Below are positions 1,418 to 31,247 of a DNA stretch of 31,247 nucleotides, in pieces. The notes beneath the pieces were generated by a model. That model worked only from the letters and a program-made list of their open reading frames with translations, did no database searches and had not been told where the DNA came from. The stretch is from a virus. How positions within the stretch are numbered: position 1 is the first letter of the stretch; each line of letters begins with the position of its first letter. The stretch lies in the IMG/VR virus record IMGVR_UViG_3300027503_000046, positions 1-31,247 of that record; one strand, 5' to 3'. The translations under genes and the position numbers were made by a program.

Positions 1418-1844
1418 TATTATTACTTATCTCTACTCTAAGTTTTTCTATTAACTGTCTTCTTTCTTCTGGACTGAGTTTTTCTTGTGTTATTGATTCT
1501 CCTTTGCTTGTCACATCTAATAATTCCGATACTTTACCATGTCCAGAGTCAAAGAGTTCTCTAAATGCCTGCACGTCTCCTTTTAGTGCTTTTCCTATAA
1601 GAGAAATAACAAGATGATCTTGTATCTGAAGTGTTTCGTTTTGTCCTGTGATGGGATTTATTTTCTTGTAAGTAGTTTCTAGCCATTCACGGACTATTGT
1701 AGATCTGTTTCTTGATCCTTTTGGCCTACCATTGGGATTATGAGATGGTTCACCTGCTTTTTGTGGCTTTAAGTTTTCTACTCTTCCCTTAGATTTTCCT
1801 TGGATATTTCTTGGTTTTTGAATGTTATTAGATTTCGATTCCAT
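1410..1844 (-). CDS. terS: Terminase small subunit candidate (TerS, DUF5681-like)
   Basis: This 144-residue protein probably recognises phage DNA and loads TerL. Residues 36-50 contain the NPNGRPKGSRNRS signature typical of DUF5681-type proteins encoded directly before TerL. The N-terminus is basic and low in complexity, followed by helical segments and an acidic C-terminal helix (EERRQLIEKLR). It overlaps terL by 8 bases and the broken methyltransferase upstream by 17 bases. The role rests on the motif and on its position immediately before terL; a DNA-binding site was not identified. Confidence 0.8.
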   Translation of the reverse strand: MESKSNNIQKPRNIQGKSKGRVENLKPQKAGEPSHNPNGRPKGSRNRSTIVREWLETTYKKINPITGQNETLQIQDHLVISLIGKALKGDVQAFRELFDSGHGKVSELLDVTSKGESITQEKLSPEERRQLIEKLRVEISNNNG

Positions 1845-2221
1845 TTCTTTTTACCTTCAAAGATGGATCTAGCTTTCTCATTCTATCTATAATAACTTGG
1901 CAGTATTTTGGGTCGAGTTCCATTCCATAGCATACTTTGTTTAATTGATGAGCGGCTACCATTGTCGTTCCACTACCTAAATATAAATCTAGTATTAATT
2001 TGTCATTTTTTTCTAAGAAACCAATACACCATGCTATTATACCCACTGGTTTTTGAGTGGGGTGGTTATATCTCTCTTCTTTTCCCGCACGTAACATACC
2101 ATTCCATAAATGTTTTTTTAATGATTGATTCCACAAGTTTATGAAATTTATCATCCTTAATAATTCTAGGGTTATTAGGATTAGATTTGATCTCAGAAAG
2201 GTTTACTTCTCTACTATTCAC
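1828..2221 (-). pseudogene. Broken ParB-domain/DNA methyltransferase, internal deletion and frameshift
   Basis: Two pieces of one familiar phage gene type are joined here in different frames. From a GTG at 2221 a 51-codon frame reads MNSREVNLSEIKSNP and continues NNPRIIKDDKF, a ParB-like N-terminus, then drifts out of register and stops at 2066. The other frame (ATG 2154 to stop 1828, 108 codons) reads a methyltransferase C-terminus: NHPTQKP and motif I LDLYLGSGTT, ending ELDPKYCQVIIDRM. The rest of ParB and the catalytic DPPY region are missing, and the junction is near 2110-2130. The C-terminal fragment alone cannot methylate because it lacks motif IV. It overlaps terS by 17 bases. It could instead be a chimera made by the assembler. 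Confidence 0.75.
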
Positions 2222-2811: not shown

Positions 2812-3021
2812 TTATTCCCTTCTTCTCATTCCTTGAGAAATTTTAAGTGTGCTTACCTGGTCTTCTAATTGCTTCAATCGTTCATTTAATTTTTCTATAT
2901 CCAACAACACATCATTCTTTTCGCTCATTTCCTGCTTCGGTTTAGATCGACTATTGAAATACAATATAGTCAATACTATCTCAGTTGCTATTATCACTAG
3001 TGCAATACTAAACCAAAGCAT
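2812..3021 (-). CDS. Small membrane-anchored coiled-coil protein, 69 aa
   Basis: Residues 1-24 (LWFSIALVIIATEIVLTILYF) form one hydrophobic segment, followed by a charged linker and a heptad-like helix (EKLNERLKQLEDQVSTLKI). The topology is probably N-terminus out, with a cytoplasmic coiled coil. It is the first gene after the promoter at 3028-3054, whose predicted start site falls at or within a few bases of this ATG, so it may be translated from a leaderless mRNA. No strong Shine-Dalgarno sequence precedes it, unlike most genes here. The function is unknown; holin or spanin roles are possible but the lysis genes lie elsewhere. Confidence 0.75.
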   Translation of the reverse strand: MLWFSIALVIIATEIVLTILYFNSRSKPKQEMSEKNDVLLDIEKLNERLKQLEDQVSTLKISQGMRRRE

Positions 3022-3027
3022 AATTTA

Positions 3028-3054
3028 ATTATATCCATCTTTTACAATTGTCAA
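3028..3054 (-). promoter_or_regulatory. Promoter for the packaging/structural operon
   Basis: On the minus strand TTGACA (3054-3049) is followed after 15 bases by TATAAT (3033-3028), or after 17 by TAATTA. Both hexamers match the sigma-70 consensus. It lies directly behind a terminator and before the first packaging-side gene. With usual spacing the transcript begins near 3021, the A of the ATG. Confidence 0.65.
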
Positions 3055-3056
3055 GC

Positions 3057-3080
3057 AAAAAATTCCCTCGATTAGAGGGA
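3057..3080 (-). terminator. Rho-independent terminator ending the early operon
   Basis: On the minus strand a perfect 6-bp stem TCCCTC/GAGGGA with a 5-base loop (3064-3080) is followed by A and six T residues (3062-3057). It lies after the last early gene (nuclease, stop at 3108) and before the next promoter. Confidence 0.85.
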
Positions 3081-3107
3081 TAGTGGGGGTAACTAATGAA
3101 ATAAAAG

Positions 3108-3542
3108 CTATACAATATTTTTTTTCTCTCCCCATTTGCTATCGATCTCTTCTAATATTTTTGCACTGTATCCATTTACGGCATAATCAGTCTGGCTGAC
3201 TCTAAAGAAATGACTCGTGCAAAGTCTTATCAATCTATACCCTGCCAATGTTATAAGATTATATTTTTCCATATCTGCCTGAAATCCATATCCTCGTTGA
3301 TGTCTACCATTAGACCATTGACCACCCTCAATCTCAATTATACAATTATAATCAGGTAGATAAAAATCACATCTATATCTTCTATCCTTAAATGGTTGAT
3401 ATTGTCTTACATATTTTATGTTTTTAAAAGATAGCCATAGAGCAAATGGATTTTCCAATTTTTTGTCATTACTAACAGTTAATATTTTTTTCTTAGGTAT
3501 TATTTTTAATTTATTCCACTTGTCTTGCGTTTCTCTATCCAT
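3108..3542 (-). CDS. PD-(D/E)XK-type endonuclease, likely in recombination/replication
   Basis: This 144-residue protein has the restriction-fold core RCDFYLPDYNCIIEIEGGQW, with D59 and the E70-x-E72 pair as likely metal ligands. GRHQRGYGFQADMEKY and GYRLIRL follow, a pattern of DUF559-like phage nucleases. It is the final gene of the early operon, in the same block as SSB and a Sak4-like ATPase. This suggests a role in branched-DNA processing or recombination, which is inference. It overlaps the next gene upstream by 8 bases and is followed by a terminator. Confidence 0.8.
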   Translation of the reverse strand: MDRETQDKWNKLKIIPKKKILTVSNDKKLENPFALWLSFKNIKYVRQYQPFKDRRYRCDFYLPDYNCIIEIEGGQWSNGRHQRGYGFQADMEKYNLITLAGYRLIRLCTSHFFRVSQTDYAVNGYSAKILEEIDSKWGEKKNIV

Positions 3543-3744
3543 GATCTAACTTATCCCTTAGTGCTCTAAGTTTTAATTCTAATTCAAATATTGAATAATT
3601 AAATGAATGTTTGCAATCACTAAAAATAAATATAAATCTATTTATATCATCAATATCATCAATTAACAATAACTCTTTTATGTCTGTATAGTAACTTTCA
3701 ACTGCATCCAGTTTTTCTTTTATTTTTCTTATATAATTATTCAT
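3535..3744 (-). CDS. Hypothetical protein, 69 aa
   Basis: I do not recognise this small helical protein. It starts MNNYIRKIKEKLDAVESYYTDIKELL and contains an acidic Asp/Ile run (DDIDDINRF). Its ATG sits immediately downstream of the SSB stop and its end overlaps the nuclease start by 8 bases, so it is co-translated with both. It may be an accessory factor of either neighbour; nothing in the sequence decides this. Confidence 0.7.
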   Translation of the reverse strand: MNNYIRKIKEKLDAVESYYTDIKELLLIDDIDDINRFIFIFSDCKHSFNYSIFELELKLRALRDKLDHG

Positions 3745-4122
3745 TTAAAATATAGGATCTCCCAAATCTAAAGTTTCTGGATAAATTGCTTCATCCGGTT
3801 TATCAGTAAAATTCTGACTCTTTGGAATTAACATAACATTATTTACCCGTAAGACAATTTTACTTACTGGCTTTCCATCTTTATTAGTCCATTTCTCTTG
3901 ATCGAGAGATCCTGTAATAATTATTAATTCACCTTTTTCTATATTTCTAACTTTATCTGCAGTCTTATTCCAAGCTTTACAATCAAAAAACATTCCTTCG
4001 GATTGCTTATCTTTAGTATATTTATTTTGTGCAATTGTAAATGATGCAAGTTTGGAATCGTTGAATTCCTTCATTTCCGCTTTACGTGTAAGTCTTCCGA
4101 CTATTTGAAAAGTATTATACAT
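3745..4122 (-). CDS. ssb: Single-stranded DNA-binding protein (SSB)
   Basis: SSB coats single-stranded DNA during phage replication and recombination. The 125 residues show the OB-fold pattern of bacterial SSBs: MYNTFQIVGRLTRKAEMKEF, then ASFTIAQNKY, FFDCKAWNKTADKV, GELIIITGSL and VLRVNNVMLI (1-107). The C-terminal tail ends LDLGDPIF, an acidic, aromatic-ended tip resembling the DDDIPF tip that recruits partner proteins in bacteria. The start overlaps the preceding micro-gene by 8 bases. Confidence 0.93.
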   Translation of the reverse strand: MYNTFQIVGRLTRKAEMKEFNDSKLASFTIAQNKYTKDKQSEGMFFDCKAWNKTADKVRNIEKGELIIITGSLDQEKWTNKDGKPVSKIVLRVNNVMLIPKSQNFTDKPDEAIYPETLDLGDPIF

Positions 4123-4291
4123 ATCTATCCTTAATATATTTAATTAAATTGTCCATTTTATTTATAATTTCTTCCAGCCTAATCATAACATCATTTGTGT
4201 CTTTATGATTTGCAAATTCTATTCTAATTAAAGCAAGATCAAATTGTAATTCAAAAGCTTTATGAATTGCTTTTATGGTATCGTATTTCAT
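4115..4291 (-). CDS. Small hypothetical protein, 58 aa
   Basis: The ATG at 4291 forms an ATGA overlap with the stop of the upstream 101-codon gene. The frame runs 58 codons (MKYDTIKAIHKAFELQFDLA...) and stops 8 bases inside ssb. Tight coupling on both sides and a coherent amphipathic-helical composition support translation. No known family is recognised. It may act with SSB. Confidence 0.72.
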   Translation of the reverse strand: MKYDTIKAIHKAFELQFDLALIRIEFANHKDTNDVMIRLEEIINKMDNLIKYIKDRYV

Positions 4292-4593
4292 ACTTTTATT
4301 CTAATCCAAGTCCCTTCAATTTTATTCCTACTTTTAATTTCTGCATAATAATTAACTATATATTCCTGCCCTTCCAGATCTTCATATTCTTTGATATATT
4401 CTTCTATTTCCTCTTCACTCAAAATGTCATCTTCGCTTTGATAATATTCCAGATGCCCCATGATATCAATCTTAGATGCATAATATTTTTCAAATTGCTC
4501 TGATCCACATCCCACTTCATCATCTACCCAAATATGTATTTCATCTTCTGGGTTTTGTTTTTGTAGTTGTGCAATTAGTTCTTTTACTTTCAT
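4288..4593 (-). CDS. Conserved small acidic phage protein, 101 aa
   Basis: It begins MKVKELIAQLQKQNPEDEIHIWVDDE, a pattern shared by many small phage proteins of unknown function. The centre is very acidic (EDDILSEEEIEEYIKEYEDLEGQ, about 54-76) and the end is basic. No catalytic motif or membrane segment is visible. The start directly abuts the stop of the preceding micro-gene (TAA-ATG) and the end overlaps the next by ATGA. Confidence 0.8.
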   Translation of the reverse strand: MKVKELIAQLQKQNPEDEIHIWVDDEVGCGSEQFEKYYASKIDIMGHLEYYQSEDDILSEEEIEEYIKEYEDLEGQEYIVNYYAEIKSRNKIEGTWIRIKV

Positions 4594-4716
4594 TTATTGC
4601 TCTCTCTCATCATCTATATCTACTATTCTACTCATAAAATAATATAATATGCATAAACATACAGAACAGGCTAAACACCATAATACATAAATAAACATTT
4701 CTTTAGGACTAATCAT
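4594..4716 (-). CDS. Small single-span membrane protein, 40 aa
   Basis: The frame begins MISPKEMFIYVLWCLACSVC and has one clear hydrophobic segment (residues 7-28) containing three cysteines, followed by an acidic tail (DIDDEREQ). Its ATG overlaps the end of the previous gene by 8 bases and its stop touches the next start codon, so the packing fits a real gene. The function is unknown; small early phage membrane peptides often act on the host envelope. Confidence 0.65.
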   Translation of the reverse strand: MISPKEMFIYVLWCLACSVCLCILYYFMSRIVDIDDEREQ

Positions 4717-4933
4717 TCTCTCTTTCTTCCAACATTGCTATTCTAACATCCTCATCTTTGAGCTCTTTTATCATTGCTTTACAATAATCTTGATATACCG
4801 ACAACAATTCCATTTTATTAATAAAACTAAATGCCATAGCAATTGTGGATAAAGTTTCTGATTGGGATAATTTTTTTAAATAAGTCTGGCTATATGTAAT
4901 TTTATATAGACTTTTATCAACCGGTTCAATCAT
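4709..4933 (-). CDS. Hypothetical protein, 74 aa
   Basis: I do not recognise this protein. It is helical with an alternating hydrophobic pattern (LSTIAMAFSFINKMELLSVYQDY) and ends strongly charged (KELKDEDVRIAMLEEREND). It has no signal peptide; the hydrophobic stretch around residues 28-45 is too polar for a confident membrane segment. It joins its neighbours through an ATGA overlap upstream and an 8-base overlap downstream. Confidence 0.72.
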   Translation of the reverse strand: MIEPVDKSLYKITYSQTYLKKLSQSETLSTIAMAFSFINKMELLSVYQDYCKAMIKELKDEDVRIAMLEEREND

Positions 4934-5097
4934 AATAATTTTCCTAGCACAAACCCAAATATCATTCCAGATATAAAACTAATCAATACATAGACTATAT
5001 ATACTGTATTAATTGGTTCTATTTGATTAATCATGTCCATGTACTTCGCCTCCTGAGTAATACGGTCTTTAAGTGCTTCTATGTCTGTTTGTTTCAT
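4930..5097 (-). CDS. Small tail-anchored membrane protein, 55 aa
   Basis: The 55-codon frame starts MKQTDIEALKDRITQEAKYM, a soluble charged helix, and ends in a hydrophobic segment (TVYIVYVLISFISGMIFGFV, 31-50) with a GxxxG-like face. ATGA overlaps at both ends support translation. It resembles tail-anchored phage micro-proteins. No specific role can be assigned. Confidence 0.68.
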   Translation of the reverse strand: MKQTDIEALKDRITQEAKYMDMINQIEPINTVYIVYVLISFISGMIFGFVLGKLL

Positions 5098-5573
5098 TTG
5101 TATGGATTTGCCTTGTAGTTATAATTTTTAATGTCATTCAATCTATTTTCGTAGTTTAATTTTTTTTGCTTTAGATATTTTTGATAGCAATCATTAAGAT
5201 CATCAATTTTAAAATAATATGTATTATAATTATACATCTCTTTTGGAATGTTAAATATTTTAGTAGCTTGTAATAATGTGAAATAACTACATCCTAATTT
5301 TTTACAATGCTCATTAACTGTTGTATATCCTTCTCGCACCTGTGGCTTGATTGGATTTTTATTTTTATAAACTCCAGGCACTACAATTTTCTTTCTATTC
5401 TCAATTTCTATTGCATAATCATTTATAAATTTTTTATCAAAATACCATTTATGCTTAACTTTAATTTTTTTTAATGTATTGGATGCCATAACAACAGAAA
5501 CACTCCAATTTAGTATCTCTGCTACCTGCTCCTTATCATAATAATTATTTCTATCAAATACTTCAATTTTCAT
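5094..5573 (-). CDS. Putative DNA-binding protein with excisionase-like HTH, 159 aa
   Basis: Near the N-terminus YYDKEQVAEILNWSVSVVMA, then a basic KKIKVKHKWYF and KKFINDYA, resembles the MerR/excisionase helix-turn-helix with its wing. A second repeat-like segment, EHCKKLGCSYFTLLQATKI, may be another recognition helix. The ATG at 5573 (MKIEVF) is preferred because it overlaps the upstream gene by only 11 bases; an in-frame ATG at 5603 would add ten residues. It could be a transcription regulator of the early operon. This is inferred from the motif only. Confidence 0.65.
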   Translation of the reverse strand: MKIEVFDRNNYYDKEQVAEILNWSVSVVMASNTLKKIKVKHKWYFDKKFINDYAIEIENRKKIVVPGVYKNKNPIKPQVREGYTTVNEHCKKLGCSYFTLLQATKIFNIPKEMYNYNTYYFKIDDLNDCYQKYLKQKKLNYENRLNDIKNYNYKANPYK

Positions 5574-5808
5574 AAGTTCCAAATTTTTTATCTCCATAAA
5601 CAATTTCTATATACTGTTTCGCATCAAATGAATTAATATGTATAAAACTCTTACACTTGTATTGCCCTTTGAATTTAATCGGTTTAAACTCTACCCAGAC
5701 ATCATTTTTAATATCTCCTATTAACTTAAACCTCATGCAAATCTTGCGAATAGGACAAGAATCATTTGCACATAATGAAAGTCTGTTTGTTATAATATTA
5801 CTGCTCAT
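5563..5808 (-). CDS. Small cysteine-containing phage protein, 81 aa
   Basis: The cysteine pattern LCANDSCPIRKICMRF (residues 12-27) plus YKCKSFI (near 50) suggests a small metal-binding protein. Similar C-x4-C-x5-C...C proteins of about 80 residues are frequent in phage early regions and have no established function. It starts 4 bases after the preceding gene and its end overlaps the next gene. Confidence 0.75.
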   Translation of the reverse strand: MSSNIITNRLSLCANDSCPIRKICMRFKLIGDIKNDVWVEFKPIKFKGQYKCKSFIHINSFDAKQYIEIVYGDKKFGTYEN

Positions 5809-5812
5809 AAAT

Positions 5813-6064
5813 TTAGCTCAAATAATTTATATTAAGACTATATTTTTTTGCAATAACTTTTTTTTCTTTACTCATATTTTTTATCAGTCTTTCCAAATAC
5901 CATTTAGCTTTATACAAATCTTCAATTCCATTCTTGCCTTTATATCGTAATACATACTTAATGATATTTCCTTCATGGAATCCCAGATTATTAGCCTCTA
6001 TAATATCTATTGCCTGTATTTTAGTTTTATAATATATAGGATCTATTTTAGTTTCAATCTCCAT
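5813..6064 (-). CDS. DUF3310 family protein, 83 aa
   Basis: The signature YYKTKIQAIDIIEANNLGF, then GNIIKYVLRYKGKNG and EDLYKAKWYLERLI, is that of DUF3310 proteins, which are found in many phages near replication and nucleotide-metabolism genes. The domain occupies nearly the whole protein, followed by a short basic tail. The biochemical role is not established. It overlaps the end of the replication gene by 11 bases. Confidence 0.88.
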   Translation of the reverse strand: MEIETKIDPIYYKTKIQAIDIIEANNLGFHEGNIIKYVLRYKGKNGIEDLYKAKWYLERLIKNMSKEKKVIAKKYSLNINYLS

Positions 6065-7526
6065 AATATCCTCGCATTGTTGACAATTCCGCTACCCTCT
6101 CTCTAATCCAGGGTTCTGGTTTTATATTGCTTCGAAACATTTCCGCTGTCATCTCTCTTAGTCTATTTAATTCCATTTCTTCCTCATGTGTTCTACATCG
6201 TACTACTTCTAAAGTTTCAGTAGATCTATTTTTGCCGGTCATGATATTATGTAATCTATTCTGCCATGCAATACGTTCGCTCTCCGGAATTGAGTTATAC
6301 TCCTCAGCTTTACGATATGCTTCTAATCTTGCCAGTTCTTTTTGTTTCTCCTCTTGTATTTCATCTAATATTTTTTTATTCTTTTTATCTATCAGTCTCT
6401 TAATCTCATCATACACTCCATCAATATCATTACTAAATCCACCAAAACAGTATTTCAAAGTAGGATTGCAATTAAGATATAGCACAAGATTTTTATCCAA
6501 GATTTCCGGATAAAGTTTTCCTCTAAACTCTTCTCCGAATTTTTTGATATAGTAAATTTTAATCATTAACTCCAAAGCTTGATAAAGTCTTTTGGATAGT
6601 GCTGACCTTGTCTCGGGATTAGCAGATTTGTATTTTGCAATAAAATCCCGAACTACCTCTACATCTTTCGCATCCTCCATTATGTGATGGTCATTGGGAA
6701 GTGAATTGTAGATCTTGTTGAGTATCCTCCGAGGGTTGTCGTCAAAACCAATACCGAGGGTCTGCATCAACTTTTCGGAGTTTCCGATGAGTTCTGTTGT
6801 AGTAAGTTTTGGAACCTGTCCAAGGATATTGTCGTATTTAGTATTTATGTCCCTTATCTGTAGTTCATACTTGCGTTCAATCTCTGAATTATCAATAAAA
6901 TCGATTTTAAGACTATCCAGAAAGATTTCCTCTACCTTGGGTATATCCAAGTGGTTTGTGTGTGCTTCTGGTTGATTTAATGATGTTTTTTGGATTATGT
7001 CTCTATTAATTGTGTGTGTGTGCGAATCTTTTGCCAGTTCGATTAAATTTTCGTTTTTCTCTATATTATTTAATACATCGTGGTTTGATTCTTTTTTTTC
7101 TTCACACACCTCATTTTTTAGTGCACCCGTTTTAATTGGATTGGTTTTCTTTATATTGTTATTCTTATTGGATACCCCCAAAACCGATTTATCGCTTTCC
7201 GACATATCGCTTTTGGGTATATCGGTAAATTTATTTCCGAACATGTTTAATATATAAGTCCAGTTACCCTTATTCCCTGCCTCTCTGGTAATATTAAGAT
7301 AGCCATTTTTTTTAAGTTCTTGAATACCGGTCTGAATAGCTTTTTTCCCATCTGCTCCATGTTTAATTAAGGTTTTACTTGTTATTATAAATCTATCAGT
7401 ATCGTGACTTAAGAGATGACATAAAATTCCTTTTGCTTTATAACTAATATTTTGATCGGATAACATCTTATTTGATACTTGAGTAAATCCTTGACGGTTT
7501 TTTATTATAAAATTTCGTTCTTTCAT
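6054..7526 (-). CDS. Phage replication initiator-like protein with N-terminal winged helix
   Basis: The 490 residues start with a winged helix-turn-helix of the phage replication-organiser type (residues 10-85: ISYKAKGILCHLLSH, then TLIKHGADGKKAIQTGIQEL). A low-complexity linker follows (about 90-200), encoded by the short DNA repeats at 7184-7228. The C-terminal region is helical (about 230-400), ending in a charged coiled coil. The layout of DNA-binding head, repeat-bearing linker and helicase-recruiting tail parallels lambda O, although sequence kinship is not claimed. With no polymerase or helicase gene in the genome, the phage presumably recruits host replication proteins. It is linked by ATGA to a smaller winged-helix gene upstream. 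Confidence 0.75.
   Translation of the reverse strand: MKERNFIIKNRQGFTQVSNKMLSDQNISYKAKGILCHLLSHDTDRFIITSKTLIKHGADGKKAIQTGIQELKKNGYLNITREAGNKGNWTYILNMFGNKFTDIPKSDMSESDKSVLGVSNKNNNIKKTNPIKTGALKNEVCEEKKESNHDVLNNIEKNENLIELAKDSHTHTINRDIIQKTSLNQPEAHTNHLDIPKVEEIFLDSLKIDFIDNSEIERKYELQIRDINTKYDNILGQVPKLTTTELIGNSEKLMQTLGIGFDDNPRRILNKIYNSLPNDHHIMEDAKDVEVVRDFIAKYKSANPETRSALSKRLYQALELMIKIYYIKKFGEEFRGKLYPEILDKNLVLYLNCNPTLKYCFGGFSNDIDGVYDEIKRLIDKKNKKILDEIQEEKQKELARLEAYRKAEEYNSIPESERIAWQNRLHNIMTGKNRSTETLEVVRCRTHEEEMELNRLREMTAEMFRSNIKPEPWIRERVAELSTMRGYYGD
7184..7228. repeat. Candidate origin iterons inside the replication gene
   Basis: On the plus strand two 15-base units, CCGATTTATCGCTTT (7184-7198) and CCGACATATCGCTTT (7199-7213), are adjacent, and a degenerate third unit (7214-7228) keeps TATCG in exact 15-base register. 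Imperfect inverted sequences (ATACCCCCAAAA and TTTTGGGTAT) flank them, and an AT-rich stretch lies at 7141-7170. Lambda-type origins use iterons inside the initiator gene in the same way. Confidence 0.5.
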
Positions 7527-7744
7527 TCTTTAACCTCAATCATATTTTTCTTGATAATAACCCCCTGCTCAATCAATTCATCAATCGCTTTTGTGGTTGC
7601 AACAAATCCAGATGTAGACGAATCGATCAAGTCCTTAATGTTGATTGATCCCCCATCGGGAGAGATGTGCTTAAGATAAAAATAAAGTCCCTTGGCAGAT
7701 AAGGACAAGTTTTTATTTTGTAGTACTTCAGTATTAATTATCAT
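7523..7744 (-). CDS. Small winged-helix protein, 73 aa (initiator-like)
   Basis: The whole protein is one helix-turn-helix domain: LSLSAKGLYFYLKH, then NIKDLIDSSTSGFVATTKAIDELIEQGVI. This matches the N-terminal domain of the downstream replication protein in layout (SxKAKG-like start, second helix pair, wing). It may be a split or duplicated initiator head competing for or modulating origin binding, which is inference. A good ribosome binding site (AGGAG) precedes the ATG and an ATGA overlap links it to the replication gene. Confidence 0.75.
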   Translation of the reverse strand: MIINTEVLQNKNLSLSAKGLYFYLKHISPDGGSINIKDLIDSSTSGFVATTKAIDELIEQGVIIKKNMIEVKE

Positions 7745-7755
7745 TTTGTCTCCTG

Positions 7756-8526
7756 TTAAAATAATTTTTGTTGAACACTAGATATTCTTTTATTTATAAT
7801 TTCGCAGTATTCAGATGATATTTCGCTTCCTATCCAATTTCTTTTATTTGCAATACACATTTTAGCAGTAGTGCCTGAACCCATAAATGGATCGTAAATT
7901 AATTCATTTTCATTAGACCATGAAAGAATATGGTCATTGACTAATTCTTCAGGAAATACAGCAGGATGTTCTGTAGTATTATTTCCTCGTGATATTTCCC
8001 AAACATTAAATCTTCTCGAATATTCCTTGACAATTCTAATTTCATTTAATATTATTCTATCTTCTCTGCATGATCTTGTTTCCTTTTTGCTTATACTACC
8101 AAAAGATTTATTTTTTTTATCATTTAATAAATTCAATGTTTTTGGTTTACCTTTGCTTAATATAAACATATATTCAAAAACATCATAATATCTTGATTCT
8201 GTTGGAACTTGCGGAGACGGTTTATGCCAAATCATTGTATCATGAATATTAAATCCAATCTCTTTAAAATATAATGCTTGTTTAAAACTTGTTCCTGTTT
8301 CGCTACCATCTATAGTAGCATCACTAACTATCCAAACTACCACACCACCTTGTTTTGTGACTCTATATAATTCCTTTGCTACGTTTTGAAAATCAAAACT
8401 ATATCCCTTGTAATTTCTAAGATTATCGTATGGAGGACTTGTAATTGTTAAATCCACAAAATTATCTTCCATGCGAGACATGGTGTCCAAACAGTTTTCA
8501 TTATAAATTTTATTAATTTCTATCAT
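7756..8526 (-). CDS. DNA methyltransferase, beta class, SPPY type
   Basis: This enzyme transfers a methyl group from S-adenosylmethionine to an exocyclic amino group in DNA. Catalytic motif IV TSPPY is at 29-33 and the AdoMet-binding motif I DPFMGSGTT at 212-220, the beta-class order. SPPY is typical of N4-cytosine enzymes, but N6-adenine cannot be excluded. The 256 residues are a complete small methylase. No partner restriction enzyme is adjacent, so it is an orphan, perhaps protecting phage DNA or marking replication or packaging sites. It overlaps the antirepressor gene by four bases (ATGA). Confidence 0.93.
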   Translation of the reverse strand: MIEINKIYNENCLDTMSRMEDNFVDLTITSPPYDNLRNYKGYSFDFQNVAKELYRVTKQGGVVVWIVSDATIDGSETGTSFKQALYFKEIGFNIHDTMIWHKPSPQVPTESRYYDVFEYMFILSKGKPKTLNLLNDKKNKSFGSISKKETRSCREDRIILNEIRIVKEYSRRFNVWEISRGNNTTEHPAVFPEELVNDHILSWSNENELIYDPFMGSGTTAKMCIANKRNWIGSEISSEYCEIINKRISSVQQKLF

Positions 8527-9260
8527 TTTAGTTTATCCGTAAAATATATTTGTCCTTTGCCGGTGATTAAAGTTTTAATTTTAGATTCCTTTTTTTTATC
8601 TATTAAATACTCTATGACTTTAAAATACCCGCTCTCTATATATTTTTGATAAGGAATATTATTAGCCATTAAATATTTATTATCTCTCAGCCATAAGAAA
8701 AGTTTATTTTGTCCCCAGCCAATAAGTTTAGAAAATTCGCCAATAGAAATTGAATTTTTGCTATCTAACACTTTATCTGCAAACTCTACTTTCGGTTTAT
8801 CTTGTTCTATTTTTTTTGCTTGCTCTTCAATTCTTTCGGCTTGATCAGCGGCAAGTCTTAAAGCTTCGGCATAAGTTTGTGGAATCTTAAATTCAGACTG
8901 TTTAATTGAGTATGATCCTGTCTTGCGAATTGACGGAAGAACTTGACCGGTAACCCAATCCTTAAATTTTTTTGAATTATTAGTTTCTGATTTTAAAATT
9001 AAAGAATATAAATCAGATTCATTTATTAAAGTTAATTCTTGAAGTCCTCCTTTAGTAGGGAGTTTCATTTTGAAACCCCCTTTAGTATGTGTAATTACTG
9101 CTTTTCTGCCGTCGGAATATCCTAAAATTTTTGTAACATCACTGGCAACAAACCAGATTTGCTCATCAATTATTACAGTTCTAACATCCTGATTTTCAAA
9201 ATTAAATATACTAACTTCTTTCGATTGTGGTTGATTTTGATTAAATAAATTTTGTTCCAT
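8523..9260 (-). CDS. BRO-N/KilAC antirepressor-like protein
   Basis: The 245 residues comprise a BRO-N DNA-binding domain (about 17-115: FENQDVRTVIIDEQIWFVASDV, SDGRKAVITHTKGG, FKDWVTGQVLPSIRKTGSY), an acidic helical linker, and a KilAC domain (about 155-243: ADKVLDSKNSISIGEFSKLIGW, ending ITGKGQIYFTDKL). Such proteins act as phage antirepressors or early regulators. No repressor is visible in the genome, so the target is unknown. The ATG at 9260 has an AAGGAG ribosome site, but that site is buried in a hairpin within an unusually structured leader. It is followed without a gap by the methylase. Confidence 0.9.
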   Translation of the reverse strand: MEQNLFNQNQPQSKEVSIFNFENQDVRTVIIDEQIWFVASDVTKILGYSDGRKAVITHTKGGFKMKLPTKGGLQELTLINESDLYSLILKSETNNSKKFKDWVTGQVLPSIRKTGSYSIKQSEFKIPQTYAEALRLAADQAERIEEQAKKIEQDKPKVEFADKVLDSKNSISIGEFSKLIGWGQNKLFLWLRDNKYLMANNIPYQKYIESGYFKVIEYLIDKKKESKIKTLITGKGQIYFTDKLK

Positions 9261-11779: not shown

Positions 11780-11978
11780 TTTTGATCTCCTGTATTATTA
11801 ATTCCCCAATTTCGCATTTCCATCGATTCGCAATTATATTTAGTGATTTGGTAGATGGTCGCACTTTATATGCTTTTAAATGGGTTAAATTATGATTTGT
11901 ATAAACAACTTCGTATTTATATCCTAATGATAATAAATGTTTTCTAATCATTTTGATCTCTGAATGTTTTCTAATCAT
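11769..11978 (-). CDS. Hypothetical protein with duplicated start, 69 aa
   Basis: The frame opens MIRKHSEIKMIRKHLLSLGY. The first nine codons and the second start are a 27-base tandem repeat that includes the AGATCAAA upstream of each ATG (11978 and 11951). The first ATG has the better ribosome site (AGGAG). The remainder has a basic strand-helix layout (THLKAYKVRPSTKSLNIIANRWKCEIGEL). No family is recognised. Confidence 0.7.
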   Translation of the reverse strand: MIRKHSEIKMIRKHLLSLGYKYEVVYTNHNLTHLKAYKVRPSTKSLNIIANRWKCEIGELIIQEIKNEK

Positions 11979-11987
11979 TTTGATCTC

Positions 11988-12191
11988 CTATTTAATTTTA
12001 ATTTTTGATTTTGATATAAATTCCAATCCAGGGTAATCACCATTTAATGTCTCTCTGCAATATCCACAGCACCTACCGGTGCCATCATCCCAAATTGAGT
12101 AGTAGTAAGCGTATTTATTACCTACTCCTATCAATTTTAACCCAGTTTTTACATACTCGCCAATTCTGTTTTTTAGTTCTGATTTATTCAT
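11988..12191 (-). CDS. Small cysteine-containing protein, 67 aa
   Basis: The start at 12191 (MNKSELKNRIGEYVKTGLKL) is chosen because AGGAG precedes it by a normal distance; an ATG at 12245 would run backwards through the hammerhead ribozyme. The centre GRCCGYCRETL clusters three cysteines, possibly a metal site. A strand-rich segment NKYAYYYSIWDD precedes it. No family is recognised. After ribozyme cleavage this gene would be first on the 3' product with a 25-base leader. Confidence 0.72.
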   Translation of the reverse strand: MNKSELKNRIGEYVKTGLKLIGVGNKYAYYYSIWDDGTGRCCGYCRETLNGDYPGLEFISKSKIKIK

Positions 12192-12211
12192 TTTTAATCT
12201 CCTATTAGTTT

Positions 12212-12264
12212 CTAGCGACCCCGAAGGGTTTCGGGAGGGAACCACCCTCCCATCGTCAGGCTAG
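12212..12264 (-). ncRNA. Type I hammerhead self-cleaving ribozyme
   Basis: Read on the minus strand every core element is present in order. Stem I 5' strand CTAGC (12264-12260); core CTGACGA (12259-12253); one extra U (12252); stem II GGGAGGG/CCCTCCC with loop TGGTT (12251-12233); GAAA (12232-12229); stem III ACCC/GGGT capped by the extra-stable TTCG tetraloop (12229-12218); cleavage nucleotide C17 after U16.1, giving GUC (12217); and stem I 3' strand GCTAG (12216-12212). Cleavage is expected between 12217 and 12216. The open helix is stem I, hence type I. The single departure is the extra base after A9; an extra base there is known in a natural viroid hammerhead. It separates two early genes, and the upstream stop codon (12263-12261) lies in stem I. 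Confidence 0.92.
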
Positions 12265-12707
12265 TTTTCTCGATACGAATATGAATTCCAAATGTCACTA
12301 CTAACATTATTTACCTTATAAGTACAATCTATCACTTGACCTCGTTTTCCACCGATTTTTATAATCTCTACTTTTACTCTGCCAAATTTTATAATAAGGT
12401 CATTGTAACTGGCTGTTATCATGTCCATTCCTTTTTGATAATAGTAATTAAGAGTAATCGCTTCCCTAACAAGAACCCTTCTCTTATTAAGTTCACGAAG
12501 GTGATTAACTAAATTCTGAACTTTGCGAAATGCTACTTTTAATTTTTGGTTTTCTGGGTTTCTAGGAAGTCTCATAATTTTAGCTTCATGCTTACTTAAT
12601 TCAAAAGATGATTCACGAGCAAAGTTAATACCAAATATGCAACCTGACATAAAATGACTGCCAATGATGCTCCTAACTATATTTATTGATTCCTTATCTA
12701 TTTCCAT
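12261..12707 (-). CDS. First early gene, hypothetical protein, 148 aa
   Basis: I do not recognise this protein. It is basic and largely helical (KLKVAFRKVQNLVNHLRELNKRRVLVREAITL) with a strand-rich C-terminal part (KFGRVKVEIIKIGGKRGQVIDCTYKV), which could suit a nucleic-acid-binding or host-takeover protein; this is inference. AAAGGAG lies 6 bases before the ATG. It is the first gene leftward from the divergent control region. Its TAG stop is inside stem I of the hammerhead, so terminating ribosomes would disturb ribozyme folding. Confidence 0.78.
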   Translation of the reverse strand: MEIDKESINIVRSIIGSHFMSGCIFGINFARESSFELSKHEAKIMRLPRNPENQKLKVAFRKVQNLVNHLRELNKRRVLVREAITLNYYYQKGMDMITASYNDLIIKFGRVKVEIIKIGGKRGQVIDCTYKVNNVSSDIWNSYSYREN

Positions 12708-12859: not shown

Positions 12860-13351
12860 ATGGCAAACAAATCAAAGTTTTTTGAGTTTTTTAGAACTAA
12901 ACGACTAAAATTAAGTTTAGTAATATTTTTTGGGACTGTGGGAGTAATATCTAACTACTCTGCACTTAAGTATTTTTTGGGACAAACCAGATTAGATTTT
13001 CTTGGATCTGAATTTAGTCTTACAGTATATGCAATTGGTATTACAATGGCTTTAGATGTAAGTATTATTGTATTTCACTTGGCTAGAATATACCCTTTAA
13101 TGATAGGATCAAGCATACTTGCATTTATGATCTCATTAGGAGCAAATACAACTACATATTTTGCTTGTGCGGGATCTTGTAAGAATGCTTTAGATGACTT
13201 AGGCACTATTATAATGTTCGGGCAATCATTAATAATGAGTATATTACCTATAATAATTATTATATACCTAACTGAACTTGCAATAAAACAATATGATTAT
13301 GAAGTCAGTGAAGTTTATGAGCGAAGCAAAGACCACATAAAATTTAATTAA
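12860..13351 (+). CDS. Four-helix membrane protein, sole plus-strand gene
   Basis: The 163 residues contain four hydrophobic segments, at about 18-36, 53-75, 79-100 and 112-138, with a basic N-terminus (KSKFFEFFRTKRLK) and a charged C-terminal tail (YDYEVSEVYERSKDHIKFN), probably cytoplasmic. No channel, transporter or enzyme family is recognised. It is the only gene on this strand, has its own promoter and ribosome site, and faces the end of the lysis genes across a bidirectional terminator. This separate control and the envelope location fit a superinfection-exclusion or host-modifying protein, which is inference. Confidence 0.85.
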   Translation: MANKSKFFEFFRTKRLKLSLVIFFGTVGVISNYSALKYFLGQTRLDFLGSEFSLTVYAIGITMALDVSIIVFHLARIYPLMIGSSILAFMISLGANTTTYFACAGSCKNALDDLGTIIMFGQSLIMSILPIIIIIYLTELAIKQYDYEVSEVYERSKDHIKFN

Positions 13352-28790: not shown

Positions 28791-30779
28791 TTAAATTGGT
28801 ACTGCACTTGCTCCACTAGGAGTTTGGTATTGTTCTCCAGTCATAGGGTTTCTTGGCAAATTAGGAAGAGACCCTGTTACTTGTTCCATCGGGTTTATAC
28901 TCGCTCCTTGTGTCACGCTTGGAATGTTAGATTGATCGGGAGTTTGAGGAGGCAAGTTCTGCATTCCGAGAATTGCAAATAGATCCTTGTCGCCAGTTCT
29001 TAATTGATTGATATGCTCTTGGATATGAGCTAATACTACAACTACTAAATCAGGATTGTTTCTTGCCTCTGGACTATCTAAGAGTTGTTTATGTTCCTGA
29101 ATGTGCATAGAATGATTATCGGTCATCAATACAGGAGGATTATTTCCATCCGACAAAGATTCATTCTCTTGTGCTATAAGCATAAGTTGTCTTTGGACTG
29201 GGTCCATAATAGAGTCTAATCTACCATTTTGCAAGACAGAAAAATACATATCTGGATTCTTAACAAAACCATATTGCAATAAAGTATCTGCAATTTGGAT
29301 TTTCCCAGCAGTTGTTTTTGACAAAGGATTTCCCATGTCTACTATAACCCTATTTACATTTTCTAAATCATCTCCTTTAAATTCTTTCATGTATGGCGTG
29401 TTCATTTTTCCGACGATTGTCGCTACTCTTGGAACAGTGGCATACTGTTTTAACATTGATATGATCGCCGTACCACTATCTTCTAATAATTGAACATATC
29501 TTTGTTGAGTCAATTGTAAGAATTGTATTGCTTGACTTGCAACTAATGCCAATGCCGCTCCTGATTTCAAACTTGACTCTGGATTTCCTCTCACTACTGA
29601 ATTGATGCCAGAAATAGATTCCATTTCATTTACTAATTCTTTATATCTATTAAATATCTCTACAGGTGTCGCAGTTAAATTCATAGGTTCTGGCTTGCCC
29701 ATCTTTGCATCATACTGGACTATATTTAGTCCTCCAGAAAGTTCCTCTACTGATATGTCACTCCCTTTTGGGACAAGAACATTTTGTACTCCAAAAGCTT
29801 CTTGATTAGTCTGAATTGTAGATGCTAGACCGTCAATTGCTCTCTGGATTGGCAACATATCGAAACTTACTGAATAACCAAAAGGAGAAGCATAGATAGA
29901 TCCTGGATGCAATGCATAAACTGGTATTTCAGGATATGGTAAATCAGAATCAAATAATACAGTCCCACCTTCTATAAATTCAGAATATCTCCCATTTGGA
30001 ACAGACTGAGTTTTGTCATGGTAGAATCTATATAAAGGTATTAAGTCAGAATCTGTAATACGGTAGAAATCCAAGAAATCATTTTTAAGATTGCCAGTAA
30101 ACATTTCAGAATTAATAATATCACTTTCAAACTCCGGATATTTTTTTGCTAGTTCATATTTATTTACAAATTCTCTAACAATCAACCAATGCCTTTCCTC
30201 AAACTTTCTTAAGTATGGATGTCGTATAATATCAACACCAGAGCATGACATGAACTTAATATCTCCCTCTTTGACTGGTTCATTGTTTTGTCCTACGCCA
30301 TATTCTCTGCCAAGAGCCACATCCCAATTAAGTGCAATATATCCTTCCCCTGACCATATAGCAAATTCAACCGCTTCTGCTACATATCTCTCAAGTCTTT
30401 TTTCTCGCATATAATAATCAAGTAATCCCTGTGCGAGTTTAGTTTGTGCTTGACTTGAATAGTCATTATTGACTGCTCTTGCATCAAATGTCGGTCTTTG
30501 AGATACAGTAATTGATAGGATAGCTTGTAATATAGATCGAAAGTGATTTACAAAAAGAAAACTATATTCTCCGACTTCTCCGCCACGAACCATGTCGCCT
30601 AAATGGTATCCTGCTCTAAAGTATTGCCTATATGATTTTCTCCATAGATCCAACATCCCATTGATGCGAACATACTGATAGTAATCATCTACTTTCTTTT
30701 GTAGTTCTCCACCAATTTCATCTACTGTAAGATTTGCAAAATATATTGCATCTTGTTCTAGTTTTGTTTTAACTAACAT
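28791..30779 (-). CDS. Portal protein, 662 aa
   Basis: The portal dodecamer is the DNA gate at one capsid vertex and the docking site for TerL and the adaptor. The length and order (after terL, before scaffold) fit large podovirus portals. Visible features include WRKSYRQYFRAGYHLGDM (46-63), the clip/stem region with FGYSVSFDMLPIQRAIDGLA (about 299-318), a helix-rich RGNPESSLKSGAALALVASQ (about 390-410) and a Pro/Gln/Asn-rich C-terminal tail (MQNLPPQTPDQSNIPS). The ATG overlaps the terL stop as TAATG. Confidence 0.88.
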   Translation of the reverse strand: MLVKTKLEQDAIYFANLTVDEIGGELQKKVDDYYQYVRINGMLDLWRKSYRQYFRAGYHLGDMVRGGEVGEYSFLFVNHFRSILQAILSITVSQRPTFDARAVNNDYSSQAQTKLAQGLLDYYMREKRLERYVAEAVEFAIWSGEGYIALNWDVALGREYGVGQNNEPVKEGDIKFMSCSGVDIIRHPYLRKFEERHWLIVREFVNKYELAKKYPEFESDIINSEMFTGNLKNDFLDFYRITDSDLIPLYRFYHDKTQSVPNGRYSEFIEGGTVLFDSDLPYPEIPVYALHPGSIYASPFGYSVSFDMLPIQRAIDGLASTIQTNQEAFGVQNVLVPKGSDISVEELSGGLNIVQYDAKMGKPEPMNLTATPVEIFNRYKELVNEMESISGINSVVRGNPESSLKSGAALALVASQAIQFLQLTQQRYVQLLEDSGTAIISMLKQYATVPRVATIVGKMNTPYMKEFKGDDLENVNRVIVDMGNPLSKTTAGKIQIADTLLQYGFVKNPDMYFSVLQNGRLDSIMDPVQRQLMLIAQENESLSDGNNPPVLMTDNHSMHIQEHKQLLDSPEARNNPDLVVVVLAHIQEHINQLRTGDKDLFAILGMQNLPPQTPDQSNIPSVTQGASINPMEQVTGSLPNLPRNPMTGEQYQTPSGASAVPI

Positions 30780-31247
30780 TATCTTCTAAACATCCTTTTT
30801 AAATTTTCTCTCTCGCTTGATTCTCTTTCAAAGTGAATAAAATGTGTTGATGGCAATGATGCACCTGTTACCGGTATAGGATTTGTATATTGATCCAAGT
30901 TTCTAACCATGTAAATCAGACTTGCCAGAGCGTCATAATGCCCATACATATCTGACACATCAAATTGTGTTCTCTGTTTATTCCATATCCCAGCCCGTAA
31001 ACATCCAATCAATTCCTGGCAATTGTCAGACACGTATAATCTTCCTTGTCCTATAAAGACTCTGAGTTCATTGACCATTGCAAGTAAAGTATCTTTTGAA
31101 GTTGGGGCAAAGTGAACATTGTGCATGAGAGACATATCTTGTAAAAGTATTACATTGTTATTGTCTGCTATTCTTCTAATATTGTTTTGTCTTTTGAATA
31201 ACTCAAGTTCTTTTGATACTATTGTTTTTGCAATCAAATCGGTTGTT
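30757..31247. repeat. Right copy of the 491-bp terminal direct repeat
   Basis: This matches bases 1-491 with 14 substitutions and no indels. Differences include a Ser codon exchanged for a different Ser codon family (AGT against TCA). It shows that the window ends are overlapping samples of the same locus from two close relatives, or diverged terminal redundancy. Confidence 0.95.
30779..31247 (-). CDS. terL: Terminase large subunit, C-terminal part (cut by window edge)
   Basis: The frame is open to the right edge and reads TTDLIAKTIVSKELELF, identical to residues 310-326 of the complete TerL, through the nuclease-domain aspartate in HYDAL to the same C-terminus KRMFRR. One residue differs (Thr for Ser in NPIPVTGASLP). 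An internal ATG at 31237 should not be taken as a start. This is the second image of terL at the contig junction. Confidence 0.92.
   Translation of the reverse strand, partial: TTDLIAKTIVSKELELFKRQNNIRRIADNNNVILLQDMSLMHNVHFAPTSKDTLLAMVNELRVFIGQGRLYVSDNCQELIGCLRAGIWNKQRTQFDVSDMYGHYDALASLIYMVRNLDQYTNPIPVTGASLPSTHFIHFERESSERENLKRMFRR

Follow-up and report, generated by a model that had tools for sequence, protein, structure and literature searches.

The purpose of hammerhead ribozymes in phage genomes has been a standing question since 2011. In the part of Perreault et al. (PMC3088659) considered here, the type I hammerheads of bacteria and prophages have three stems, an invariant core and an open stem I. 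They share a pseudoknot of loop II that aligns stems I and II, they have no fixed neighbour genes, and in prophages several copies flank single genes. The same part of that study reports pseudoknot-type contacts of loop II in about 40% of hammerheads and cleavage of triple phage-type hammerheads in E. coli. In the haloviruses HF1 and HF2 the ribozyme (HHphage) lies a few nucleotides before an early phage gene, and the mapped 5′ end of the early transcript is within 3 nt of the predicted cut. Perreault et al. also saw no in vitro activity for 4 of 18 consensus hammerheads, which counts against activity at the locus described here.

The plus-strand hammerhead of Chrysanthemum chlorotic mottle viroid (CChMVd; De la Pena & Flores 2001, via the part of PMC3705267 considered) has one extra nucleotide between A9 and G10.1. 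Its natural residue is A, the fastest variant has U at position 10, being 3-4-fold faster than the natural A, and C and G are harmful at this position. It serves viroid replication and uses a loop-loop contact. In the pseudoknot hammerhead of Zhan et al. 2024 (PMC11300833) the core is stabilised by a pseudoknot, which replaces helix II.

Here we describe a hammerhead in a 31.2-kb phage record (IMG/VR IMGVR_UViG_3300027503_000046; the whole stretch of 31,247 nucleotides is referred to as the window). Judged by its sequence, it is a real hammerhead, namely a variant of the known ribozyme type with U at position 10 (U10) and a pseudoknot. Its subfamily has a fixed extra U after A9, whereas the hammerheads in the cited part of PMC3088659 have inserts at A6a, U13a and 2a/2b, and HHphage, which belongs to an archaeal virus, has inserts near C3 and not after A9. 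U10 copies may nevertheless already be among the alignments of Perreault et al. The insert places the element close to that of CChMVd, but the phage ribozyme is intercistronic and has a pseudoknot with the 3′ tail instead of a loop-loop contact. As in the ribozyme of Zhan et al., the core is presumably stabilised by a pseudoknot; however, the phage element retains a helix II of 7 bp, to which the pseudoknot comes in addition.

Sequence and descriptor scan agree that positions 12264-12212 of the minus strand make up an entire type I hammerhead, in which no core residue is missing and A9 is followed by one extra U. The 5′ strand of stem I (CTAGC, 12264-12260) includes the TAG stop codon of the upstream gene (12263-12261) and forms 5 bp with the 3′ strand GCTAG (12216-12212). 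It is followed by the core C3-A9 (CTGACGA, 12259-12253; CUGACGA in the RNA, with C at N7), the extra U (12252) between A9 and G10.1, and stem II (12251-12233), in which GGGAGGG (12251-12245) pairs with CCCTCCC (12239-12233) across loop II, TGGTT (12244-12240). Core residues G12, A13 and A14 (GAA, 12232-12230) lead into the 4-bp stem III (12229-12218; strands ACCC, 12229-12226, and GGGT, 12221-12218), made of A15.1-U16.1 and CCC/GGG and capped by a UUCG tetraloop. Hammerhead numbering predicts the cut between C17 (12217) and G1.1 (12216). The type I core C3 U4 G5 A6 N7 G8 A9, G12 A13 A14, A15.1-U16.1 and H17 is thus intact. Stem I is open, with both RNA ends located there, and the other two stems each end in a loop. 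The extra U at 12252 departs from the strict consensus, which has zero nucleotides between A9 and 10.1. RNAfold recovers all three stems (−24.9 kcal/mol, z −1.93), and the GC content of the element is 0.57 versus about 0.31 in the surrounding DNA. The first-pass annotation had recognised the complete minus-strand hammerhead, its intact core and the GC island in AT-rich DNA, and on these points our analysis agrees with it. Its three stems are also correct, but the structure was not complete, since a pseudoknot was missed and the element extends to 12206.

This pseudoknot is formed by loop II, UGGUU (12244-12240), and the 3′ tail AACUA (AACTA in the DNA, 12210-12206). In relatives with loop II TGGTY the tail after GCTAG reads AACYA, and in those with TTGCY it is mostly AGCAA, so that the pairing covaries from UUGC/GCAA to UGGU/ACYA. 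Over 120 distinct loop/tail pairs the mean complementarity run is 4.08 versus 3.26 (sd 0.065) with the tails dealt among copies, exceeding 2,000 permutations, and for sequence farther downstream it drops to about 2.8-3.1. With one copy per locus and unique loops the values are 4.17 versus 3.27, above all 5,000 permutations. A tertiary contact between the loop of stem II and the stem I region is therefore present as covarying loop II and 3′ tail. Sequence, descriptor, pair counts and a family covariance model (84.8 bits) together delimit the whole element as 12206-12264 on the minus strand.

The record carries terminase, portal, anti-repressor, replication and Sak4-like genes. The ribozyme separates two genes of the early operon, as was noted at first pass. 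Upstream is the first gene of the operon (12261-12707, minus strand, 148 aa), whose stop codon is inside stem I, and downstream is a 67-aa gene (11988-12191, minus strand); protein searches assign neither to a known family, and neither has relatives in the viral contigs and phages searched. The predicted cut is 25 nt ahead of the downstream ATG at 12191, as had also been stated. The Shine-Dalgarno sequence AGGAG of the downstream gene (12203-12199) begins 2 nt past the pseudoknot strand. The intergenic gap of 69 nt holds the ribozyme and the leader only, leaving no room for a separate promoter. A divergent membrane-protein-like gene on the plus strand (12860-13351) is conserved in relatives and serves as a syntenic anchor of the early promoter region.

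DNA similarity to the window was not found in the phage collection. An intrinsic terminator (GC hairpin and U-run) was considered and rejected, as the site lacks a U-run and no terminator is called there. A coding explanation is excluded by indels of 1, 2 and 4 nt between copies. The pistol ribozyme model RF02679 has matches in other phages and none in the window. Scans of the window for type II and III permutations gave a single weak match, type III-like and due to chance, within the methyltransferase gene (7756-8526), and it was discarded. RNA ligase or end-healing genes, which would hint at RNA circles, are absent among the window proteins searched, a set that covers part of the small ORFs. 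Several other features of the record were observed. The 3′ half of the terminase occurs at both ends (23-481 and 30779-31237, 97% identical over 459 nt), which makes the record a circular or terminally redundant phage genome joined across strain variants, though classed linear. At 11935-11985 (minus strand) a ribosome-binding site and start are duplicated in tandem (AGATCAAAATGATTAGAAAACATT twice), giving a 69-aa ORF two in-frame starts. The ORF at 1828-2154 (minus strand) matches a DNA methylase over its C-terminal part only, the full methyltransferase being that at 7756-8526.

A portal protein search yielded sixteen related loci (83-93% identical). The element is present in seven of the eight related records covering the early region, one of which (G012) carries two. 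In relatives other than G012 it follows the first gene of the early operon, 320-600 nt past the start of the divergent gene, and the genes flanking it are not conserved. A conserved structure amid unconserved neighbours speaks for the ribozyme explanation. The close relative G002 (L024/L025) covers the early region without a ribozyme, its early genes being consecutive with short gaps; the ribozyme is therefore not essential. A Silvanigrella phage with a portal 29% identical has no type I copy.

In the alignment of the ten nearest copies the core residues are invariant, and CTAGC/GCTAG and the extra U are also kept in all of them. Two-sided changes occur in seven pairs, with 17 two-sided cells versus 5.3 after shuffling and 0-1 for slid controls. 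Compensatory changes are located in stems II and III and the pseudoknot, stem I being invariant at this distance. The family covariance model built from these ten copies scores the window at 84.8 bits with E about 1e-22, the window being among its own building sequences, and does not find a second copy there. It extends to 102 copies from 63 viral loci. Among these, all five stem I pairs covary, 96.5% of cells pair and two-sided cells number 403 versus 103 shuffled; these counts come from a model alignment biased to its own structure and from a collecting pattern that pre-set the first stem I pair and two stem II pairs. Among the raw pattern matches, before any model, 102 of 115 lengthen the forced first stem I pair to at least 5. 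Compensatory changes in homologous phages, on which the first-pass annotation had staked its reading, are thus found in all three stems: in II and III among near relatives and in I over the 102 copies. We consider this comparison of sequences decisive for the hammerhead, and it establishes structure, conservation and place.

The extra U was initially taken for the single deviation of the element. It is indeed present, but it is hardly a deviation, as it is fixed across a large subfamily: all ten copies of the near alignment have it, and more than 100 further phage copies share it. With a pattern free as to the insert, every one-base insert with complete stems is U. In scans with a forced insert (U, A and C; G was excluded as indistinguishable from a canonical stem) complete elements number at least 106 for U, five for A and one for C. 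On these counts the phage preference matches the best position-10 residue of the viroid kinetics. The CChMVd hammerhead is active with A10 and more so with U10, which means that the no-insert consensus is not absolute and the label ‘variant’ is appropriate. The extra nucleotide would thereby be no longer the peculiarity of a single viroid but a rule, the phages strongly preferring at this position the residue that did best in biochemistry.

Chance is a poor source of such an element. The descriptor scan finds one hammerhead in the window, and a type I match of any kind (minimum stems 5/6/4 bp, loose loop lengths) arose in 2 of 6,898 dinucleotide shuffles of the window. In 257 Gb of bacterial genomes, a pattern that sets stem I and the core and leaves stems II and III free has 14 chance matches, and stems II and III form in none of them; in viral contigs both form in most of its matches. 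Searched for in full as a strict DNA pattern, the element had zero matches. Rfam reports no match in the window at the gathering score, at E 10 or with RF00163 (Hammerhead_1) alone, and none of the hammerhead copies in fifteen phage loci. On ten phage records with canonical or U10 hammerheads RF00163 reaches at most 28.6 bits, canonical no-insert copies included, with a curated cut-off of 34 bits. Because this model, which describes the same ribozyme type, also leaves canonical phage hammerheads below its cut-off together with the window element and its relatives, that threshold has no diagnostic value for phage copies and the Rfam null is uninformative. A sub-threshold covariance score, put forward at first pass as part of a refutation, was obtained but does not refute the hammerhead.

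The position of the element was regarded at first pass as special to this case, with a stop codon in stem I and a start codon close behind. This does not hold, as such a layout is typical of phage hammerheads. In 138 of 166 distinct phage copies a co-directional ORF has its stop codon between −15 and +10 nt relative to stem I, versus 8% of random positions; this count is inflated by the UGA inside CUGA, and the conservative figure, for stops between −14 and +4 with that UGA excluded, is 97/166. In phages with multiple copies all of them are on one strand, about one per gene, with a median spacing of 0.6 kb. In six loci (L086, L109, L147, L162, L170 and L175) a single strand bears 4-6 hammerheads, and most of these loci combine U10 with canonical cores within one stretch; in L162 and L170 pistol ribozymes occur within the same gene clusters as U10 hammerheads. 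The 131-kb phage record L054 has 2 hammerheads and 8 pistol ribozymes over 5.7 kb (2912-8574). Its ten slots after gene stops, at nearly every gene, hold one or the other, each starting at or within some 25 nt of the stop, with the next start about 30-40 nt further on. An association between ribozyme classes has been noted (PMC10085705). Two unrelated ribozymes in the same slot suggest that cleavage is the selected trait.

Hence, we suggest that the ribozyme of the window is very probably active and that it probably cuts the early mRNA in two between the first two genes of the early operon. The best explanation, in full, is that the RNA cleaves itself during transcription and thereby parts the first early gene from the remaining operon, to which we assign a probability of roughly 70% (0.72); cleavage activity, its timing and its effect on expression are what we infer here. 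The ribozyme would be transcribed within the early polycistronic mRNA and would fold once the RNA polymerase clears 12206 and the ribosome leaves the UAG in stem I, as a terminating ribosome would be expected to block folding. The RNA would then cut itself between C12217 and G12216. The mRNA of the first early gene would have two stable hairpins near its 3′ end, which would carry a 2′,3′-cyclic phosphate. The remaining operon, i.e. the 67-aa gene, small DNA-binding-like genes, the Sak4-like gene and on, would become a separate mRNA with a 25-nt leader and an open Shine-Dalgarno site, and its new 5′-hydroxyl end may be expected in infected cells. The purpose of this may be different stability and translation for the two parts of the mRNA. 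Precedents for such cutting are the phage-type triple hammerheads cleaved in E. coli and the transcript end of HF1 and HF2.

The stop codon inside or adjoining stem I, here and in most relatives, brings in a gated version, in which ribosomes terminating at the UAG prevent cutting, and the cut reports translation or repression of the first gene and resets the rest of the operon. With its established footprint a terminating ribosome would cover the 5′ strand of stem I and the core. However, any intercistronic element in tightly packed phage operons adjoins a stop codon, and the stop offsets, spanning −14 to +4, keep no single fixed register. We hold such gating to be improbable. Still less credible is a relic without catalysis, or a simple RNA structure that works as translation insulator, decay block or terminator-like hairpins. 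GC-rich hairpins alone can protect RNA ends, but the site has neither U-run nor terminator call, no core residue varies over the ten copies, and the conservation of core, pseudoknot and U10 together is best explained by catalysis.

Comparison of relatives shows that the ribozyme sits exactly at gene-exchange points, as cause or bystander. The upstream DNA of G007 and G009 is 98% alike up to the ribozyme, stems II and III differ and the downstream DNA is unrelated. In G011 and G016 the likeness starts at CTAGCC, i.e. from the ribozyme onward, and continues downstream only. In L055, a phage lacking a matching portal, the divergent gene is 83% alike and the element lies at a similar distance. From these junctions it could be argued that an active hammerhead is conserved mainly as a fixed joint for gene exchange, with stem I, core and tail as short homology for early-gene swaps, and with cleavage tolerated or just insulating the mRNA of the swapped gene. 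A joint of mere homology, however, has no need of compensating changes in stems II and III and in the pseudoknot or of a preference for U10, and we consider this explanation unlikely, at about the level of gating. Self-cleavage between the first early gene and the rest of the operon is thus the reading we prefer.

Last but not least, standard Rfam annotation overlooks phage ribozymes of the U10-pseudoknot kind, which leads to an underestimate of their abundance. The interest of the family lies in the size of the subfamily, its invisibility to Rfam and the natural comparisons that it offers, with and without the ribozyme and with swapped neighbours. It is a clean test system for the role of phage hammerheads, having a single copy whose place is fixed and whose neighbour genes on either side are unrelated, and close phages with diverged copies and G002 without the ribozyme are at hand. 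Tentatively, and with doubt prevailing, we extend this to U10-pseudoknot hammerheads as a large, mostly Rfam-invisible phage subfamily that forms a standard module boundary, providing self-cleavage of the mRNA and marking sites of gene exchange, as the ribozyme is the sole conserved stretch between swappable genes. If true, any newly acquired gene would automatically be insulated at the RNA level.
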